A stretch of DNA of 64,000 bases from Bacteroidota bacterium. GTDB taxonomy: Bacteria; Bacteroidota; Ignavibacteria; Ignavibacteriales; Melioribacteraceae. The stretch is taken from assembly GCA_018818165.1 (NCBI GenBank), contig JAHISP010000062.1, forward strand, positions 1 to 64,000. Direction: 5' to 3'. The stretch's first letter is position 1, and every line of letters begins with the position of its first letter. The notes beneath the pieces were generated by a model. The model was given only the letters and a program-made list of their open reading frames with translations, was not told where the DNA came from and searched no databases. Shown here piece after piece: positions 5,440-15,531 of the stretch. The translations under genes and the position numbers were made by a program.

Positions 5440-8400
5440 TTATATCATATTTCGTTTAATTAATTCTTTTTCGATTAGTTTATAAATCGATTTATTCAAA
5501 AAATATCTATTGGACATAAACTCAATTTGATCAATATACAAAATATTTAATGCAGCAAGATAACCTAAAATTTCGCGACTAACTTCAACATTTACATCAA
5601 ATAATAAAGAGTGTTCAACATCTGTAAATGTTTCGTGTACTAAAATTTCTGATAATGTTAGCAAATAAATATCTTCAAGTTTATCCAAAAGAGCAAATTG
5701 AATTTTTCGCAAAGGTTCAATAATTAGAGTATTTTCCTTTACTTCGCGAATTGATTGAAGCCAATAATACATTCCAGAAATAATATTACCTTCGCTATAT
5801 TCTTCAAGTCTGGTAAAAAATTGATTGCTTAGTTTTTTTTGTTCTTCCTCAACACTTGCTCCTTTTATTAATTTATTCTTCAATTCTCTTATTTCATCAA
5901 CTTTGAAAAATAAATTATAACCAGTAACACTATGTCTATTTAAAATAACGTTTCTAATATCGTTTCTATGTAGTGCGGTAATATCAATTTTACTAAAAAA
6001 GATTCTATCTAATTCAAAACTATTATTAACAAAAGTCCAAGGATGTTTACCAATAGAACAAATCCATAAAACATTTTTTGAAGTAGAAGAAACTATATAA
6101 GAAAATGTTTTAATTGCTTCAAAACCACTAATTTTTTTAAAGAAAAGACGACCAATATTTTCGAGAATAATTACTTTTTTATTGTTTCTATCATTCATAG
6201 TTAAAATCAGTTCTTCAATTTTAAGATTGCTACTATAACCTAAAATTTCAGTAAGAATTGAAATTAAATTAGAACCAGAACTGCATGTTTTTTTAAATTC
6301 ATATCTAACAAAATTATGGTTTGATAAGTATTTTTTGATTATAGAATTAATGAGTGTGTTTTTTCCGCTGCCAGGTTCACCAATTAAAACAGTTGAAGAG
6401 AATTTACCGTCCTTAAAATTTTTAATAGAAGTTAAAATCTTTTTCTCAAGCTCATCGCTTTGAACAAAAAAATCATCCGATTCAATTGTTGTTCCATCAA
6501 AAAGTTTACGATAAAGAAAAGGAAGTTTTTTAATCCTCTCTTCATTAAGAAAAATTGTTTCACTCATTAAGACAGAAGGCATTGGTTTAAAAAATTTGAG
6601 TTTAAGCATTAATCTTTTAACAGATGGATGAAAATATTTTAAGTAACTTCTTTTAGTTAATAGCTTATATTTTCTAATAAATTGACCTAATTGATATAAT
6701 TTATTTTCAAAAACATTAACGACTTCTTTTTTATGAGATTCCTTACTCATATAAATATTAGTCCTTAAAAGAGAACTTTCGGCAATATATTTGCCAAGAT
6801 CTTCAATTGTAAGCTCAACTTTTTCTAATATTTTAGTATTTATATTGTTCTCCAGTTGATCAATTTGGTTGCTCAATTGTTCAATTCTGTATTCAAGTTT
6901 ATCGTTAAGTGAAATATGTAATTCCATTGCTAATTGGGAATTGTTTCCACTATTACTTTTAAGTTCATTTTCCGCAGATTTAAAATGATATGAAACTATT
7001 GAATACAAATTTTTTAATTCCATGATTGTTAAATTAAGGTGGTTAAGTAAAAGTTCATTAACTTCACCCATTTCACGCAAAAACTTCTGTTCCAAAATAG
7101 CTTTTGTAATTTTTCTTAAATGAACAGCTTTTAATTTTTCAAATTCTGGTGTTCTGTTATCAAATTGAAAATCGGATTCTTCAAGTAACCAAATTTCTTC
7201 GGGAAGATTAGAAGAAACTTCGGCAAACTCATTCATTAATTTTTCCAGAAGCAAGTTAAGCTTTTTGCTTCTTTTAATATTTTCAAGATGCTGTGTGTAA
7301 TATTTAATTGTTGAAATAAAAAATTTATTGTGCAATTTGCTAATAGTTTTCTGCAAATCCTCATTGCTTTCATTGGAATTTAGCAATATTCTAAAATCAA
7401 AAATTTCAGTTAAAAGTTTACTGCAAACTTTTCTAAGATTTCCGTTAATTTCTCTTGAAATATTTATTAATGAATCATTAACAATTTTAGTAAGATCAAA
7501 CTTAAGTTTATATAAATATGATTCTTTTTCAATTATTCCTAAATAACCTTGATAGAAATTAACCCAATATCTTATGGCGTCGGAAGTTAAATCTTTTTTT
7601 GCTTCGCTTTCATTAAATAATTTGGAATATTTATATTTTTTTGGACTAAATTTATAAGTCCCAGCAATTTCCAACACATCCAATAAACCATTAAAAGGTG
7701 TTGCTAATGCATAAGTTAAGCGCGCACTAATTTCATTTGCTGTGTTGTGTATTTCTGTACGATATATATTTATTTCACTTATAAATGCAGTGTGCAATTC
7801 CATTAATTTGGCAGAATATTTTTCTTTTACATTTTCCTCATTTTCATTTTCTGAAAGTAAGGTTATAAGTTCATCTAAATATTCAAAATAATTAGTGAAT
7901 AGTGTATGAATTTTCTTTAAAGTAGTAAGTCTTTCAGCACCAACAAGATTTACAGTTTCCATAATTTCGGAAGTTGATTTGCCCACCAAGAAATATTTAG
8001 CAAGATTTTTATATTCAACAATGCGTTGAAGTTTATATTTCTTATTAAATAATTTTCCAACAAAAAGCTTAAACTGAGCAATACTTTTGTAAATTGTATC
8101 ACGCAGATTATCCGTTGGGGCAGATAAAATAAAACGTTCTTCCAAATCAAGATCAATAGTTCGTGTTAAACCATCTGTTAAATCAACAAGTGAATTGAAC
8201 AAATCCTTAATAAGTGGATCTAGTTTTAAAATGTTCTTTTCGGTAGTTTTTCGCTCGTTACAAAGTGAAAGATAGTATTCAGAAAGCTCCGATTTTAACT
8301 CCGTAATTTTGTTTTTAAGCTTCTGCGAATCAAACTTCTCTTCTTTTAATAAGCTATTCATTAACATTAAATTATCGGTGTATTTTTCACTAACTGTTAC

Positions 8401-9930
8401 AACCAATTCAATTGATTCTTCAGTTCGGCTATAAATAAACTTACTATTAAAAATTTTTAGAATATCGTTGAGTTTTACTAGAATTAAGAAAAGTGATTTA
8501 TTCAGTTTTTTATTTGCTAAAGCAGGTTCTTTGAATTTTGCTGAATAGAGTTTTTCAGCCTGCTTTACGGCAATTTGTGAAGTAACTTCGGCATTAATCG
8601 GCTCAGATTCTATCTCGTTTTTCTTTGCAATTTTAGATAATGCAACTTTTAATAATATTGGACCAAGAAAAATATTAATAGCCACAATTGACGTAATTAA
8701 TGGCTTAAGTTGAGCTCCAAATCCAGGCAGTTTTTGTTCAATTATAATTGCTATACCAAGCATTAATCCACCAATTGAAAGAAAGCCCATCCAACCATAA
8801 TCTCTAATGCTAACATCCTCTTTAGCAATTTGAGCAGCTGTTCTAACTGAAAAATACATTGCAATAGCTCTAACTATAACAACAACTAATCCAATAACAA
8901 TTGTGGATTTAAGTGATGTAATATCAATTGCAGCCCCGGCAACTGTAAAAAATGTAATAAATATTGGAAGTGAAAGTTTCTGTAATGGATGATGAAATTT
9001 TTCTCCAAATTCGGAATAATTCTGTACAACAAAACCAGCTGCTACAAAAACAATTAAAGTTTCAAGATGGAGAACAATTGACACTTGACTTGCCAATACA
9101 ATAAATGCTAATAAAAATAGTAATATTTCTTTTCCAACATATTTTATATAGGCTATTAATATTCCGCCGAAAATGACACCAGTAATTACAGAAAGCAGAA
9201 GTTCGAGCCCAAGCGCAGTAAATATTTCTAGCTTTATTTCTGCTGTAGGATTTAACAATGAAAGTGAGATTGTTAAGCTTAATGCAAGCAGCAAAATTAC
9301 AATTACGTCTTTTACGATGGCTGTACTTAAAATTAAATCAATAAATTTTCCTTTGGCTTTTGCTTCATCTGCAACAACAAGAGTAAGTTCAATTGAAGTG
9401 CCCATTGCTATTACGGAAACTAATAGACCAGCAGCTAAAATTGATTTCCAACCAGCATCTGCTAAAAATGGGATAAAGGGTGAAAGGGCAAAAATAGTAA
9501 CAGGAATTAAAATATAGATTAATAATGTTTTAAAGCCGAGAATAAGAAATATTGATTTAAGCGATTTTTTAATTCCATCTAGTTTTAATTCTAAACCAGC
9601 TGTTAAGGCTATTACGCTTAAAGTTACTGTGTTAATTAAACTCAAATCTTTAATTACTTCCAAACTAAAAACTTTTAAGAATGGAAGTTTTAATAATTCT
9701 GTTGAATATGGACCAAAAATAATGCCTATTAATAAATATCCAATTACTCTTGGTAATTTTAAATAGGATAATATTTCGCCCGTAGTAAATGATGCTAAAA
9801 TTAAAAATCCAAGCACAGCCAGAGTTTTAGGATTAAAAGCTGAAACAGTTGCAAGTTGAATGGACTGAATAAATAAAATTATTCCAAATAAAATACTGAT
9901 AATTACAAAGCGGCGGATAACAGGTATCAT
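5440..9930 (-). CDS. Giant CPA2 cation/proton antiporter fused to a helical region and a C-terminal P-loop ATPase
   Basis: 1496 residues, about three times a normal antiporter. Residues 1-440 are a 12-13-span CPA2 (KefB/NapA-like) exchanger with the family stretches GYLLIGIIFGP and TAGLELKL. From about 450 to 1170 the chain is charged, helical and coiled-coil-like, with no recognised domain and no KefB-type TrkA_N. At about 1182 a Walker A motif (GEPGSGKNT) begins an AAA/STAND-like ATPase with VIILENIGRLF at about 1255 as Walker B; the usual Asp is replaced, leaving a Glu. The last 100 residues look like a winged-helix lid (LSEILVHETF… LAALNILYID). It overlaps the preceding antiporter gene by four bases and sits one base before mscS. 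The frame is continuous with no shift, so the fusion is real in this assembly. Coupling of ATP binding to ion exchange is inference. Confidence 0.85.
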   Translation of the reverse strand: MIPVIRRFVIISILFGIILFIQSIQLATVSAFNPKTLAVLGFLILASFTTGEILSYLKLPRVIGYLLIGIIFGPYSTELLKLPFLKVFSLEVIKDLSLINTVTLSVIALTAGLELKLDGIKKSLKSIFLILGFKTLLIYILIPVTIFALSPFIPFLADAGWKSILAAGLLVSVIAMGTSIELTLVVADEAKAKGKFIDLILSTAIVKDVIVILLLALSLTISLSLLNPTAEIKLEIFTALGLELLLSVITGVIFGGILIAYIKYVGKEILLFLLAFIVLASQVSIVLHLETLIVFVAAGFVVQNYSEFGEKFHHPLQKLSLPIFITFFTVAGAAIDITSLKSTIVIGLVVVIVRAIAMYFSVRTAAQIAKEDVSIRDYGWMGFLSIGGLMLGIAIIIEQKLPGFGAQLKPLITSIVAINIFLGPILLKVALSKIAKKNEIESEPINAEVTSQIAVKQAEKLYSAKFKEPALANKKLNKSLFLILVKLNDILKIFNSKFIYSRTEESIELVVTVSEKYTDNLMLMNSLLKEEKFDSQKLKNKITELKSELSEYYLSLCNERKTTEKNILKLDPLIKDLFNSLVDLTDGLTRTIDLDLEERFILSAPTDNLRDTIYKSIAQFKLFVGKLFNKKYKLQRIVEYKNLAKYFLVGKSTSEIMETVNLVGAERLTTLKKIHTLFTNYFEYLDELITLLSENENEENVKEKYSAKLMELHTAFISEINIYRTEIHNTANEISARLTYALATPFNGLLDVLEIAGTYKFSPKKYKYSKLFNESEAKKDLTSDAIRYWVNFYQGYLGIIEKESYLYKLKFDLTKIVNDSLINISREINGNLRKVCSKLLTEIFDFRILLNSNESNEDLQKTISKLHNKFFISTIKYYTQHLENIKRSKKLNLLLEKLMNEFAEVSSNLPEEIWLLEESDFQFDNRTPEFEKLKAVHLRKITKAILEQKFLREMGEVNELLLNHLNLTIMELKNLYSIVSYHFKSAENELKSNSGNNSQLAMELHISLNDKLEYRIEQLSNQIDQLENNINTKILEKVELTIEDLGKYIAESSLLRTNIYMSKESHKKEVVNVFENKLYQLGQFIRKYKLLTKRSYLKYFHPSVKRLMLKLKFFKPMPSVLMSETIFLNEERIKKLPFLYRKLFDGTTIESDDFFVQSDELEKKILTSIKNFKDGKFSSTVLIGEPGSGKNTLINSIIKKYLSNHNFVRYEFKKTCSSGSNLISILTEILGYSSNLKIEELILTMNDRNNKKVIILENIGRLFFKKISGFEAIKTFSYIVSSTSKNVLWICSIGKHPWTFVNNSFELDRIFFSKIDITALHRNDIRNVILNRHSVTGYNLFFKVDEIRELKNKLIKGASVEEEQKKLSNQFFTRLEEYSEGNIISGMYYWLQSIREVKENTLIIEPLRKIQFALLDKLEDIYLLTLSEILVHETFTDVEHSLLFDVNVEVSREILGYLAALNILYIDQIEFMSNRYFLNKSIYKLIEKELIKRNMI

Positions 9931-11225
9931 TTTGATTCTCCTGTTATTTCACCAACATCTACTAGCAGATTTTTTGCCATTGAATACCCAATTACATTAA
10001 ATAGAATAATGGAAGTTAAAACTGCGCTGACAACTATTGGAGTAAATTCATTGTTGTAAACATTTACATAATCTATTATCATTGCACAAGTAACAATATC
10101 AAGTGACATTAAACCTTTTCCAATGCCAGGCGATAATTTTTCACGAGAATATGCAGAATGATAAGCCACCGAACCAGCAGTTGATTTTGTTATAAATCGT
10201 AATAAAATAAAAGTAAGGGAAACGGCAATAAATATTACTAAACTTGGCGGTACCCAAATAAAGCCTGCCATTACAACAACCAAAATACTCATTGGCTGAA
10301 AAAGCCTTTCGAGTGATTCTTTTATTTTTGAAGCAATTTTAGAAAAATTTGCAAGCATCATTCCTAAAATAAAATTCATATAAAGAGGTGAAAAATTTAG
10401 GAAGTATGCTATTCCACTAGTGAAAATCACAATTCCTAAAATAGCAACAAATAATTTTTTTTCATCGGTCTCCCGTCCAATAAAAATAAAAAACAGAAAA
10501 CCTATTAGGAAAGCAAGCACAATACTTATTACAATCCATTCAATAGCTGATATATCATAAGAGGAATTTGCACCAATATGAATAATTGAAAAAAGCAATC
10601 CATATAAAAATATATTCAAATTGGAATTTATTAGGGAAGACTTAACTAAAGATTCACCAACACGACCAGAAACTTTATTTCTAGTGATAAGTGAACTAAC
10701 AATAAAATTGGAGGAAAAGGCACCAATTACACTTAAAGCAAACGCTGCTGCAATTATATCGTTTAAATTGTTTTCATTACCCCAAAGATAATTTAATGCA
10801 AAAAATGAAATTCCACCAATTATTAAAAACGAAAAGAAAATCTCAAATAGTGCTAAACGCCAATGTTCTGGTTCGGAAGAGCTAATATTTTTAAAGTTGA
10901 AATTTAATCCATAAATAAAGCCAATAAAACCAATAGCTGCGGCAATACCTGGTATTAATTGAGTAATCATTTCGGGTGAAATTAAGGTAGGATAATTATA
11001 ACCAAAAAAATCTTTGAACCACCTTGAAAATGCAGGGCTTATTAAAATTCCTAAAAAAATATATTCAATTCCAGATGGCACATAATATTTTGACTGAATT
11101 TTGTTGAAAATAAAATGGGTACTTATATAACCCAAGATTAGTACAACAATTAAAACTATTAAAGATTCCATGAAAAAACTATTACCTAAAATAATAATTG
11201 TCAAATATACTTTAAAAATCATCAA
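9927..11225 (-). CDS. CPA2-family cation/proton antiporter-like membrane protein
   Basis: 432 residues, almost entirely hydrophobic, with about 12 predicted spans in the Na+/H+ exchanger arrangement (YIFLGILISPAF in the first core repeat, FILGMMLANFSKIASKI and GKGLMSLDIVTCAMIIDY later). It is the first gene of the ion operon and overlaps the giant antiporter gene by ATGA, indicating translational coupling, so the two may form a heteromeric exchanger. An internal Met (MESLIVLI, codon at 11171) with AGGTAA upstream is an alternative start that would remove 18 residues. Substrate cannot be read from sequence; Na+, K+ or H+ exchange is the family norm. It is divergent from typical NhaA and NapA, so the subfamily is left open. 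Confidence 0.82.
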   Translation of the reverse strand: MMIFKVYLTIIILGNSFFMESLIVLIVVLILGYISTHFIFNKIQSKYYVPSGIEYIFLGILISPAFSRWFKDFFGYNYPTLISPEMITQLIPGIAAAIGFIGFIYGLNFNFKNISSSEPEHWRLALFEIFFSFLIIGGISFFALNYLWGNENNLNDIIAAAFALSVIGAFSSNFIVSSLITRNKVSGRVGESLVKSSLINSNLNIFLYGLLFSIIHIGANSSYDISAIEWIVISIVLAFLIGFLFFIFIGRETDEKKLFVAILGIVIFTSGIAYFLNFSPLYMNFILGMMLANFSKIASKIKESLERLFQPMSILVVVMAGFIWVPPSLVIFIAVSLTFILLRFITKSTAGSVAYHSAYSREKLSPGIGKGLMSLDIVTCAMIIDYVNVYNNEFTPIVVSAVLTSIILFNVIGYSMAKNLLVDVGEITGESK

Positions 11226-11368: not shown

Positions 11369-12622
11369 TTAAGGATTTGAAGGTGTACTTGGATTAGATT
11401 CTCTTTCAACTTGTGGATATGGAAGCCAAGCTACTTTAGCTAAACTTATTTTACCAAATCTTCTTAAATCTTCAAGACTAACACCAGTTGCATATAATTC
11501 ATATTGACGTTGTTTTAAAATTTCTTGAAGAACTGCACTTTGATCGTTGCTATTAAAATTAGCTAAACCAGCTGCTGACCGAATTATATTTATTTGAGTT
11601 GCAGCATTAGATAAGTCATTAGTTCTTGCATAAGCTTCAGCTTTAATCAAGGTCATTTCTCCATATCGAAAAAGTTCAAATGAGGAGAGTTGATTTTTCC
11701 ATAATAACACATCATAAAGTTTGTTCTCATCAGGGTTAGTCCAAGTTAAACCACTATTGTAACTGGTAGTATCAAAAAGAGCTTCAACACGGGTATCACC
11801 ACTTTCTGCATTATCTCTCCAATTTGCAGTAGCTCCAAACATATGTCTTGTATGGAAATTATCTGTCATTGGATTTAAGTTAATTGCACTATATACAAAA
11901 ACTGAAGTAGCACCAGCATCAACACTATTTGCAAAAGTAATTGCCGCAGAATAATCTTCTTTCATTAGTGATAATCTTGCTTGGAATACTTTAATTGTGT
12001 TTAACAAATCGAAACCATCTCCAAGAATATCATTTGTAAATTCATCAGATACATTTGCAGCTGGTGTTGCAGCTTCAGAAAGTAAAGTTAAGCAATAATT
12101 AATTGCTTCTGTTTTGCTAACAAATGATGGAGTATTTGAATTATAAGTCTCAACTGGTAATTGTTGGAAACCACATTGAAGCAATGTAGTAAACTCAATT
12201 ACTTTTGCTGTTTTTGCTAATGCCACCATTCCATTTTTTGTGCCATCGCTAAATTGTACAGCATCAATATTGTGAAGAATATCATTTGCAGACTTAATAG
12301 CTTGATAAGAATGTGACCAAAGCAATCTTACAGAAGCATTATCTTCAATGATCATTTGATCTTGAAATTCACGATCGTTTGCCATAGAATTGCTATTTGC
12401 ACTAAATTCTCCAGCAAGTAAGCCTGGAATTAAAACTTGATCATCAACACCAATTGCCATTCTTCCTTGCATTCCAATTGCAACAGCTTTTAATCCTTGA
12501 GCCGTTGAAAGCACATCGGCTTCCGTTGGAGTGTTAGGGTTTGATATGTTTAAATCGCAACTAGTAACAATACTTGCAATTATTACAATTAAGAAAAATG
12601 TGCTTATATTAAATTTTTTCAT
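11369..12622 (-). CDS. SusD/RagB-family outer-membrane nutrient-binding lipoprotein
   Basis: 417 residues from the chosen Met (MKKFNISTFFLIVIIASIVTSC). A Met seven codons upstream also opens the frame, but AGAGAGGAAAA sits just before the inner ATG and only that start gives a proper lipoprotein signal; Cys of VTSC is the lipidation site. The rest shows SusD features: an early NPNTPTEADV segment, helical TPR-like stretches and the carboxy-terminal ILKQRQYELYATGVSLEDLRRFGK motif of the RagB/SusD family. It caps the SusC barrel encoded just upstream and delivers oligomers to it. Ligand is unknown; no glycosidase is adjacent, and a GH13 amylase lies 45 kb away. Confidence 0.93.
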   Translation of the reverse strand: MKKFNISTFFLIVIIASIVTSCDLNISNPNTPTEADVLSTAQGLKAVAIGMQGRMAIGVDDQVLIPGLLAGEFSANSNSMANDREFQDQMIIEDNASVRLLWSHSYQAIKSANDILHNIDAVQFSDGTKNGMVALAKTAKVIEFTTLLQCGFQQLPVETYNSNTPSFVSKTEAINYCLTLLSEAATPAANVSDEFTNDILGDGFDLLNTIKVFQARLSLMKEDYSAAITFANSVDAGATSVFVYSAINLNPMTDNFHTRHMFGATANWRDNAESGDTRVEALFDTTSYNSGLTWTNPDENKLYDVLLWKNQLSSFELFRYGEMTLIKAEAYARTNDLSNAATQINIIRSAAGLANFNSNDQSAVLQEILKQRQYELYATGVSLEDLRRFGKISLAKVAWLPYPQVERESNPSTPSNP

Positions 12623-12642
12623 AATGTTTTTCCTCTCTCTCA

Positions 12643-15531
12643 TTAAAAGTTTAACTGAATACTAAAATTATAGCTTGCTGGAATTGGAACAGTTGCAAAG
12701 TCAAATCCACGAACTAGTGTACTTTGTGCTGCAACATTTATTTCAGGATCCATTCCAGAATATCCCGTAATTGTTAGCAAGTTTCTTCCGGAAAGAGTTA
12801 AGTTTACGCTCTCTAAGCCTAAATCACTTATAAAATTATTTCTTAATTTATAATTGACACTCAGATTTCTTAGCTTCACAAAACTACCATCTTCTATATA
12901 GTTTGAGTAATTACTTCTTTTAATGTTATAATAACCAACTGGAACTTCGCCTTTAATTTCTTTGTCATATTCTGTACCAATTGCAAAGGCAGGTGTTTGT
13001 AACATTCTTTCAGTAAAGTTAAATACGTCTTGTCCAATCATAGCATCAAACTGGATATTAACACTTAGGTTTGAACCAATTTGGAAATCATTAGTAAGTG
13101 ACATTACAAAATCTGGATTTGGATCGCCAATAATTGATTTTGTAGCACTTTTAATTGGCAATCCAGTTGTTGGATTAATGCCGTCTTCAGTATAACCATA
13201 AAAATATCCTGGAACTTCACCTTCACCAACCCAAACAATACCCCAACTATCTGGCAATGCAAATTCACCACCGTCACTTAAACTTTCAATAAGTGGAGTA
13301 TTTTTTGAGAATGTTAAAGTTGTTGTCCAAGAAAAATTTTCGTCTCTTATGTTTAAAGAACGAACTAACAATTCAATACCTTTATTAGAAAGTACACCAA
13401 CATTTGCTAACTGTTCGGTATAACCAGTAGAAAGAGCAACATTTTTAGGAAGTATTAAATCGGTTGTTTTACTGTTGTAATAAGTTACTTCAATACCAAT
13501 TCGATCATCAAGTACAGAAAAATCAGTACCAATTTCAAATTCTTCTTGACGTTCAGGTTTCAAATTAGGGTTTCCACTTCTTAAAGCATTTACTAGACCA
13601 GCACCACCTGAATACTCTCTAAATATGTAATTATTAAATTGGCTATAACTATCAACAGGTTGACCGCCTGAAAAACCATAAGCAGCACGCAATTTAATAT
13701 TATCGTTATAATGGTATGTTGTGCTAAATTTAGGAAATAGCTGCCATCTCACATCCTTACCAAAAGTTGATGAGCCATCTAATCTTAATGAACCAGTTAA
13801 AAATAATTTGTCTAAATAACTAGCTGTTTCCTGAAGGTAGTAACCCAGTGTTTTTCGCTCATTTATATATTCACTAGAAAATTGAGTTTCACCTTGAACA
13901 ATATCTACTAGCATTGTCAAATTTTTTGCTGTTGCTGTAACAATATCTGATTGATCATATTGGAAATTTATTCCGCCTGTAGTAACTGATTTTATATCTT
14001 TAGTAAAATTATGTGTATAAGATGCATCAGCATCTATATTCATAAGTTTAGATGTTTTTGATGCAGATGCAGAATAACCGTCTATTCGTGAAGGAGCAGA
14101 AGAATTACGTGGAGTAAATTCTTTTGCTAATTGTGTATATGTATCATAACCTATATTAAAATTCATTACAAAATTATCAATTGGAGTAAACGAAAGTTTT
14201 GCTCCACTAATAAGACGATCAATTTCTTGAGGGGCTTTCCAATTGTTAATAACATCCAAAGGGTTTGCTGTATAACCATTAGATGGATAAATGCCTGTTT
14301 CTGAATCTTTATTATAATCTTTAGTGTTGGGTCCAAAAATTATATTTGTAAATACACCATAGAATCCTACTAATCCACCATTTGGGACAAGATTTGAATA
14401 TGAGTGTATGTAATTTGAATTTACTGACAAATACAAATATTTGTTGATATATTGGTCCAAATTAAGACGGAAACTTTGCTTTGAGTAATCAGTTCCTCTC
14501 ATAACACCATCTTGTGTAAGTTGAGAAGTTGAAAAATAATAACGCGTTTTATCATTCCCACCAGCTATTGAAAGTGATGTACTATTTGACCATCCTTTTC
14601 TATAAATTTGGTCATGCCAGTCATATCGTTCAACAGGAGTTAAACTATTTTGGTCAAAATAAGTCCAGCCATTAGCTCCAGTAACAGTTGTATTTCCCTT
14701 ATATGGATAATCTGAAACGTCTAACTTACTATTAAGAACATCTACGCCAATTGATTGTTTCAACTGAATTTCTAGTTTCCCAGCTTTACCTTTTTTTGTG
14801 AAAATTTGAACTACACCATCATTTGCTCTTGAGCCATAAAGAGCTGCTGCTGCAGCACCTTTAATTACTTCAATTTTTTCAATATCATTTGGGTCCAAAT
14901 CAGCTATTCTGTTTGATCTATAACCACCAAGATCAATAAGCTGGTCTGAACTATTATCGATAACAACACCATCAATAATATAGAGAGGTTCTGCACTTCT
15001 TGAAATAGAAGATGTTCCTCTAAGTCTAACAGATGTTCCGCCTCCAGGTGTTCCAGAATTTACTTGAACCATGGCTCCAGCAACTTGCCCAGAAAGCGCA
15101 GCATCAAGTTGTGGCCCCTTGTTTTGAAGCTCATCACCTGAAATAATTCCAATACTGTTTCCCAAGTTCTTTTTTTGTTGCGGATCAGCTGTTCCAGTTA
15201 CAACAAGAGCTTCCATTTCAAGAATATCATAATTAAGTTGAAAATTTACTTGTACTGTACCGTCTTGCACTGAGACTGTTTTTTTTGAACTTTTATAACC
15301 AATATAACGGGCTTCAAGAACAATATCCCCGTCTTGTTTTGGTATTTTTAAGGAATATAATCCATCAAGATCAGTGGATGTTCCAATATTAGTATTTACT
15401 ATTAAAATATTTGCTCCAGGAAGCCCAATTCCCTTTTCATCAACTACTTTTCCAGCCAAATTAAGCTGGGCAAAAGTAATTGAAGAGCAAATGAGTAATA
15501 CTAAATTAATAATTAGTGCTTTTTTGATCAT
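12643..15531 (-). CDS. SusC/RagA-family TonB-dependent outer-membrane transporter
   Basis: 962 residues with signal peptide (ends SITFAQ) and AAGGAG before the ATG. Order: carboxypeptidase-regulatory-like domain at about 22-110 (GKVVDEKGIGLPGANILI), a plug domain with the SusC signatures LSGQVAGAMVQVNSGTPGGG, SVRLRGTSSI and PLYIIDGVVIDN at about 145-240, IEVIKGAAAAALYGSRANDGVV, then a 22-strand-type beta-barrel to the terminal aromatic residue (SIQLNF). It imports SusD-bound ligand across the outer membrane using TonB energy. susD follows directly. The 620-base region upstream is the presumed promoter region. No anti-sigma or ECF sigma gene is adjacent, unlike many SusCD loci. Confidence 0.95.
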   Translation of the reverse strand: MIKKALIINLVLLICSSITFAQLNLAGKVVDEKGIGLPGANILIVNTNIGTSTDLDGLYSLKIPKQDGDIVLEARYIGYKSSKKTVSVQDGTVQVNFQLNYDILEMEALVVTGTADPQQKKNLGNSIGIISGDELQNKGPQLDAALSGQVAGAMVQVNSGTPGGGTSVRLRGTSSISRSAEPLYIIDGVVIDNSSDQLIDLGGYRSNRIADLDPNDIEKIEVIKGAAAAALYGSRANDGVVQIFTKKGKAGKLEIQLKQSIGVDVLNSKLDVSDYPYKGNTTVTGANGWTYFDQNSLTPVERYDWHDQIYRKGWSNSTSLSIAGGNDKTRYYFSTSQLTQDGVMRGTDYSKQSFRLNLDQYINKYLYLSVNSNYIHSYSNLVPNGGLVGFYGVFTNIIFGPNTKDYNKDSETGIYPSNGYTANPLDVINNWKAPQEIDRLISGAKLSFTPIDNFVMNFNIGYDTYTQLAKEFTPRNSSAPSRIDGYSASASKTSKLMNIDADASYTHNFTKDIKSVTTGGINFQYDQSDIVTATAKNLTMLVDIVQGETQFSSEYINERKTLGYYLQETASYLDKLFLTGSLRLDGSSTFGKDVRWQLFPKFSTTYHYNDNIKLRAAYGFSGGQPVDSYSQFNNYIFREYSGGAGLVNALRSGNPNLKPERQEEFEIGTDFSVLDDRIGIEVTYYNSKTTDLILPKNVALSTGYTEQLANVGVLSNKGIELLVRSLNIRDENFSWTTTLTFSKNTPLIESLSDGGEFALPDSWGIVWVGEGEVPGYFYGYTEDGINPTTGLPIKSATKSIIGDPNPDFVMSLTNDFQIGSNLSVNIQFDAMIGQDVFNFTERMLQTPAFAIGTEYDKEIKGEVPVGYYNIKRSNYSNYIEDGSFVKLRNLSVNYKLRNNFISDLGLESVNLTLSGRNLLTITGYSGMDPEINVAAQSTLVRGFDFATVPIPASYNFSIQLNF

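Follow-up and report, generated by a model that had tools for sequence, protein, structure and literature searches.

The window analysed here is a stretch of 64,000 nucleotides from a Bacteroidota bacterium of the Melioribacteraceae (class Ignavibacteria; GenBank assembly GCA_018818165.1, contig JAHISP010000062.1, positions 1 to 64,000). It holds a gene, present as a single copy in its genome, that joins a CPA2 antiporter to a long helical tandem repeat and an AAA+/winged-helix module (Table 1). The strand is to be corrected in a preliminary description of this DNA, as positions 5440-9930 are riddled with stops when read on the plus strand; the 1496-residue chain that it reported, with a CPA2 domain and the motifs GEPGSGKNT and VIILENI, is a real frame at that place on the minus strand. 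The operon with a second antiporter, MscS and TrkHA was confirmed and runs in the order ANT2, fusion gene, MscS, TrkH and TrkA with spacings of -4 (an overlap), +1, +6 and +11 bases, the second antiporter (ANT2) being a CPA2 paralogue that was recognized by hhalign and yields no Pfam match. For ANT2, the mechanically called open reading frame (ORF) runs to a TTG at 11225, and the start of its homologues, an ATG at 11171, was adopted. A scan for promoters and terminators was no richer than shuffled sequence (56 vs. 55.8 and 4 vs. 4.1). The most common association of the AAA+/winged-helix module, overlooked in the preliminary description, is with MscS and not with the antiporter.

Table 1. Genes of the operon, and domains and motifs of the fusion protein
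Feature	Position	Strand	Remarks
TrkA/KtrA-type RCK subunit, 231 aa	1924..2619	-	PF02254 E 1.3e-24, PF02080 E 8.2e-10
TrkH K+ uptake subunit, 586 aa	2631..4391	-	PF02386 E 3.6e-55
MscS-like channel, 346 aa	4398..5438	-	PF00924 E 5.6e-16; spaced from the fusion gene by 1 base
Fusion gene, CPA2 antiporter + helical tandem repeat + AAA+/winged helix	5440..9930	-	1496 aa, ATG at 9930
AAA+/winged-helix module, residues 1119-1496	5443..6576	-	AlphaFold, Foldseek, VIA
Walker B-like VIILEN, residues 1253-1258 (VIILENI starts at 1253)	6157..6174	-	
Walker A GEPGSGKNT, residues 1184-1192	6355..6381	-	Asn where Ser/Thr is usual
Helical region, residues 462-1112, two related halves	6595..8547	-	AlphaFold pLDDT 87.4, pTM 0.76 (modelled alone); hhalign
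CPA2 domain, residues 46-431, with K207-D208	8638..9795	-	PF00999 E 4.3e-18, over cut-off
ANT2, CPA2 paralogue, 414 aa	9927..11171	-	hhalign to the fused CPA2 domain 98.0%, E 1.9e-13

Full-length homologues of the fusion, with identities of 28-81%, occur in other genomes, namely in the genus and the family of the window, in a second family of its order and in a further family (f59) of the class, and also in named records titled Ignavibacteria or Ignavibacteriales. One homologue, 78% identical to the fusion of the window (L016; surveyed loci carry L numbers throughout), stems from a record titled Acetofilamentum sp., a name that is probably wrong for this metagenome-assembled genome. In the comparison with the 81% identical homologue L015, the ratio of nonsynonymous to synonymous substitution rates (dN/dS) was lowest in the exchanger (0.075) and the AAA+ part (0.076), higher in the helical part (0.131) and highest at the junction (0.183); by this measure the gene is under purifying selection, junction included. 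Because full-length homologues exist in other genomes and dN/dS is low in every segment, an assembly join or frame artefact, a concern raised at the outset, is ruled out.

Regarding the exchanger part, the NCBIfam model for CPA2, TIGR00932, matches the fusion only below its cut-off. The TrkA_N/KTN domain (PF02254) is absent from the 1496-residue chain, RCK being confined to the separate TrkA gene, and a KefC-type domain was ruled out as the Pfam scan yielded no KTN or RCK match in the chain. No Pfam model exceeded its cut-off between residues 432 and 1178. The helical region (651 residues) was predicted by AlphaFold to be mostly helical, and its two halves are related (hhalign 96.6%, E 5.2e-10), so that the region is a tandem duplication of long-helix units. 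The long coiled-coil region of about 700 residues assumed earlier holds as to its helices; a coiled coil as such is not shown. No Foldseek match to the helical region was obtained at E<=0.001. Its best VIA rows were designed bundles (Z 13.9), and rows for vinculin, talin and catenin reached Z 8-9; since these values lie within the helical-bundle background of which the tool warns, nothing is drawn from the likeness.

An AlphaFold model of residues 445-1496, computed with 54 sequences (pLDDT 83.5), shows an AAA+ core followed by a winged-helix-like end. The AAA+ part is most similar to ORC/Cdc6 (Foldseek 7tji_I, E 6.0e-8; VIA Z 15.3 to 7jgr_G, root mean square deviation 3.6 over 249 residues); TnsC, NSF and STAND proteins come next, and NLRC4 and Apaf-1 are among the fold matches. 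At about residues 1179-1275 the Pfam model AAA (PF00004) scores 21.2 bits, exactly at its cut-off, and AAA_22 stays below its cut-off. The STAND profiles nSTAND3 and nSTAND1 match only weakly, likewise below cut-off. As modelled, the C-terminal module is an AAA+ core with a winged helix of the ORC/Cdc6 type; AlphaFold, Foldseek and VIA together support the P-loop ATPase with a winged-helix end that had been proposed.

The CPA2 fusion was seen in 18 loci in all (the window, L005, L015-L018, L023-L025, L061, L062, L163 and L172-L177), three of them partial (L005, L018 and L163). Wherever the respective side lies on the sequence, ANT2 immediately precedes the fusion (16 of 16 loci) and MscS immediately follows it (17 of 17). 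The pair TrkH-TrkA comes next in ten loci (the window, L015-L017, L023-L025, L061, L062 and L172), L005 having been fetched only to the start of TrkH.

A profile of the AAA+/winged-helix part alone served as the survey query. As the surveys scored the best five or the best two candidates per genome, genome counts are lower bounds; the module was found in at least 75 of 395 genomes of the phylum of the window and in at least 16 of 349 genomes of the Pseudomonadota (the phylum of an Aliivibrio record). In 95 of 100 loci the module has a same-strand neighbor that matches the MscS profile, about 81 times on the 3' side and about 14 times on the 5' side. Among the five misses, the contigs of L120, L123 and L124 break off on the side where related loci have the gene, and L126 and L127 have a small gene with two transmembrane (TM) helices there. 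An MscS neighbor was present in all 17 Pseudomonadota loci, in 11 of 11 further loci and in another three of three (L155, L156 and L163). At L108, L114 and L116 the MscS gene, hidden under longer spurious ORFs, was found by a six-frame pass, and gene overlaps of more than 60 bases at L085, L107, L111 and L114 are put down to the choice of start. NCBI annotation gives the same module-MscS pair on two plasmids (Novosphingobium and Caulobacter).

The MscS profile had been built from eight partner proteins of these loci and was therefore circular, for which reason the Pfam model PF00924, which is independent of it, was applied as a check. With E<=0.01 as the threshold it matched 94 of 97 partner candidates; the MscS and MscK models of NCBIfam match the partner proteins only far below cut-off. 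In the whole 4.88-Mb genome of the window only five places match PF00924. As a control, AAA_22 genes from 20 related genomes were examined, and MscS was found within about 1.5 kb in none of 30 (30 of 74 matches listed; control loci 2.3-3.5 kb long, some cut by contig ends); one control locus, L199, scores 9.8e-11 against the module profile.

In 37 loci (L064-L095, L097-L099, L102 and L106) the two upstream neighbors on the opposite strand belong to the same two gene families as in L064; this speaks for one constant site in the chromosome and against mobile islands. By eye, one of these two neighbors resembles a uridine kinase. Other peculiarities of single loci were also seen. On the Caulobacter plasmid pNIBR24541 (L156, 3458-7880) the module gene is followed by two genes annotated as MscS, and L182 likewise has two genes matching the MscS profile. 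The very divergent modules of L150 and L151 (307-382 aa) have lost Walker A and still have an MscS gene directly 3'. Aliivibrio S4MY1 (L133, L134) carries two paralogous module-MscS pairs in one genome, with membrane helices N-terminal in the module.

The module is also found in other architectures. A cotransporter of the SLC12 type is fused to it in seven loci (L021, L022, L113 and L179-L182), with MscS next in each, a small MscS following these fusions. The Pfam model AA_permease matches L021 and L022, and the other five loci were assigned by phmmer to L021; L022 exceeds the Pfam cut-off for SLC12 and matches TIGR00930 (K-Cl cotransporter) at E 7.1e-114, a score that is nevertheless under the cut-off of that model, and the SLC12 part of L181 falls into two reading frames. 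In L126-L128 the small membrane gene is followed in the same run by an unfused Na_H_Exchanger gene (PF00999, E 9e-19 to 2e-22). L107 (3716-11699) reads TrkA, TrkH, a membrane domain of about 400 residues fused to the module, and MscS; this membrane part had no Pfam transporter match and was negative in hhalign against the CPA2 (1.3%) and ANT2 (0.1%) profiles. Most Pseudomonadota modules carry N-terminal TM helices of their own, and other modules are soluble. In eight loci (L081, L085-L087, L090, L091, L094 and L102) the ORFs are only 298-433 aa long and lack the helical repeats; since they keep their pairing with MscS, the helices are not the indispensable part. A module tree was inferred by a quick method for 81 of 111 modules, after removal of 13 rows that were truncated or divergent and of 17 near-duplicates. 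On this tree the architecture labels need six changes, which is the minimum, and the CPA2 fusions form one group (SH-aLRT, the Shimodaira-Hasegawa-like approximate likelihood ratio test, 92), as do the SLC12 fusions (97), which in turn join L126-L128 (99).

Regarding the active sites, 57 of the 97 modules aligned in the main set retain the Walker A lysine, as do all 11 loci added afterwards (11 of 11) and all 16 aligned CPA2 fusions. All six CPA2 fusions added later read GKS; the window reads GKN, with LEN in the Walker B-like segment. Judged by these motifs the module is expected to bind nucleotide. Hydrolysis of ATP by the copy in the window is doubtful because its Walker A lacks the usual Ser/Thr, and the "ATP-gated" exchanger suggested in the preliminary description is not demonstrated. 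The acidic ion-binding residue in a TM5-like helix, which we take to be a CPA2 motif, is D208 in the window; at the site corresponding to K207-D208, 17 aligned fused CPA2 domains read KD (14), KE (2) or KS (1; L177). By contrast, none of the 16 ANT2 sequences has D or E at the aligned ion-binding column, L025 and L172 having an Asp one place later. With a dN/dS of 0.08, ANT2 is constrained like the rest, and for this reason it probably functions as a subunit that does no transport itself, as far as its sequence tells.

These features can be joined in a reading to which we assign an even chance: the module would be a nucleotide-binding AAA+ regulator that partners MscS and, in this clade, couples the channel to K+/H+ exchange. 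The C-terminal approximately 1050 residues would constitute an AAA+ regulator whose family has the neighboring MscS-type channel as its standard partner, covalently attached to a CPA2 exchanger at the position where KefC bears its KTN/RCK regulatory domain; CPA2 family topology would place it in the cytoplasm. The helical repeats and the AAA+/winged-helix part would bind the cytoplasmic part of the channel, nucleotide state and oligomerization might link or switch the opening of the channel and K+(Na+)/H+ exchange, ANT2 would serve as a non-transporting partner in a heteromeric exchanger, and K+ uptake, the reverse process, would fall to TrkHA. The sequences themselves show the fusion, a conserved order of genes, the adjacency to MscS in several lineages, the recurrence of the module with other cation transporters and the missing acidic residue of ANT2; the physical complex, the cytoplasmic location, the control by nucleotide, K+ as the ion and the direction of control are inferred. 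The MscS adjacency with its AAA_22 control, the fusion of one module to two unrelated transporters, the ANT2-fusion-MscS order, the near-equal dN/dS of the AAA+ and antiporter parts, the Walker A lysine of all aligned CPA2 fusions and the minimal number of architecture changes on the module tree count in favor of this reading. A more far-reaching version is tentative and, in our judgment, somewhat more apt to fail than to hold: the modules might be unrecognized, lineage-spanning AAA+ gating partners of MscS, forming a nucleotide-sensing ring that would set channel opening alongside membrane tension and that is also fused to CPA2 and SLC12 transporters, and channel, exchanger and Trk might be one osmotic/K+ machine with the dead CPA2 paralogue as an obligate partner.

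Several observations weigh against such a coupling. Adjacency alone is no proof of a complex. Regarding distribution, the module is absent from most genomes (27 of 39 relatives yielded no match), and most modules have no attached transporter, so that coupling to exchange would be confined to a clade. In all five f59 loci (L173-L177) MscS is not followed by TrkHA, which leaves ANT2, fusion and MscS as the core and makes TrkHA an addition. The three exceptions to the PF00924 matches are L126-L128 (L127 reaching 14.9 bits), where the small membrane ORF falls short of a significant Pfam match to MscS. Finally, 40 of the 97 modules aligned in the main set lack the Walker A lysine, it is followed by Ser/Thr in only nine of 16 CPA2 fusions and by Asn, Arg or Lys (GKN, GKR or GKK) in the other seven, window included, and L023 and L062 lack the Walker B acid.

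The Walker A substitutions, together with the long helical repeats, would suit a scaffold or pseudo-ATPase that ties MscS and transporters into one assembly and needs no ATP turnover. We regard this explanation as unlikely, as the lysine is nonetheless retained in the majority of modules and in every one of the later loci, the AAA+ core is constrained as strongly as the antiporter, and the eight helix-less loci still pair with MscS. Still less probable is an assembly or quality-control factor, that is, a chaperone- or unfoldase-like AAA+ protein that inserts or assembles MscS and neighboring transporters: the fold, the presence of NSF among the VIA rows and the different channel and transporter types paired with the module would suit it, but not the permanent covalent fusion to two transporter families, a core that is ORC/Cdc6-like rather than unfoldase-like, or an adjacency limited to one channel family. 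Osmotic and K+ functions are plausible regulon mates, and separate osmotic genes could share a promoter without any interaction, the fusion being fortuitous; that one module is fused to two unrelated transporters, and that MscS is retained beside solo modules without a transporter, renders such mere co-location slightly more improbable again. A stress or anti-phage effector, in which a STAND-like sensor opens the MscS pore to de-energize the cell, finds some resonance in the weak nSTAND-type Pfam matches and in NLRC4 and Apaf-1 among the fold matches, but is very improbable given that PADLOC yielded for six proteins a single weak match to one of them (mad8, E 1.6e-4), that the operon includes housekeeping TrkHA and that the 37 loci with two shared upstream neighbor families point to a fixed place.

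Among the closest known systems are KefB/KefC, which (PMC10224563) combine a CPA2 exchanger with a large C-terminal nucleotide-binding part (KTN/RCK) and an accessory gene (KefF/KefG), Kef gating K+ efflux through the KTN domain at the same place in the chain. The fusion differs in that an AAA+ module and helical repeats replace KTN and that the accessories are MscS and a CPA2 paralogue, not KefF; no quinone-reductase-like KefF/KefG gene is among the operon ORFs (ANT2, MscS, TrkH and TrkA). The partner gene shares the PF00924 beta domain with the MscS family, including the K+-dependent MscK, but its putative regulator is either encoded as an AAA+ protein of its own or built into a transporter chain. 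By fold comparison the module shares the AAA+ core with a winged helix with ORC/Cdc6, TnsC and STAND proteins, but its genes sit with channels and transporters, not with replication or transposition, and its catalytic motifs are often degenerate. SLC12 K-Cl and Na-K-Cl cotransporters, the second type fused to the module, are not homologous to CPA2 and do not occur in the window. In the ATP-sensitive K+ channel (KATP; Kir6 and SUR), an ion channel has a dedicated nucleotide-binding partner as metabolic sensor; the likeness is one of working principle only, as its channel and ATPase families differ from those of the module-MscS pair.

The fusion gene of the window would be a CPA2 exchanger with a cytoplasmic nucleotide-binding regulator, a variant of a known arrangement, and the MscS-AAA+ partnership itself may be of a new kind. 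The module has no name in Pfam, NCBIfam or PADLOC (apart from the single weak PADLOC match), and a literature search, a weak test with subscription papers and preprints outside its scope, returned no description of the MscS-module pair or the CPA2 fusion. The arrangement had not been recognized in the preliminary description either, and this stands: none of the libraries searched names a CPA2 protein with an AAA+/STAND-like module or holds a known domain routinely fused to CPA2, the fusion being nevertheless regular within the clade. MscS channels are commonly seen as valves that respond to tension on their own. If the proposed partnership is true, a dedicated and conserved nucleotide-binding partner of MscS, encoded next to it in several lineages, would provide a direct route for energy or ion status onto turgor release, and the fusions would indicate the transporters that the partner likely touches, which makes the idea open to testing. 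An AAA+ protein would be an alternative to KTN/RCK for controlling a CPA2 exchanger, and ANT2 with the fusion would offer a naturally heteromeric exchanger with one inactive-looking member.

Two further observations concern the surroundings of the operon in the window. Upstream of it, at 11369-15531 on the minus strand, two ORFs resemble a SusD/SusC pair by eye, and at 120-488, also on the minus strand, an ORF resembles a transposase fragment by eye.

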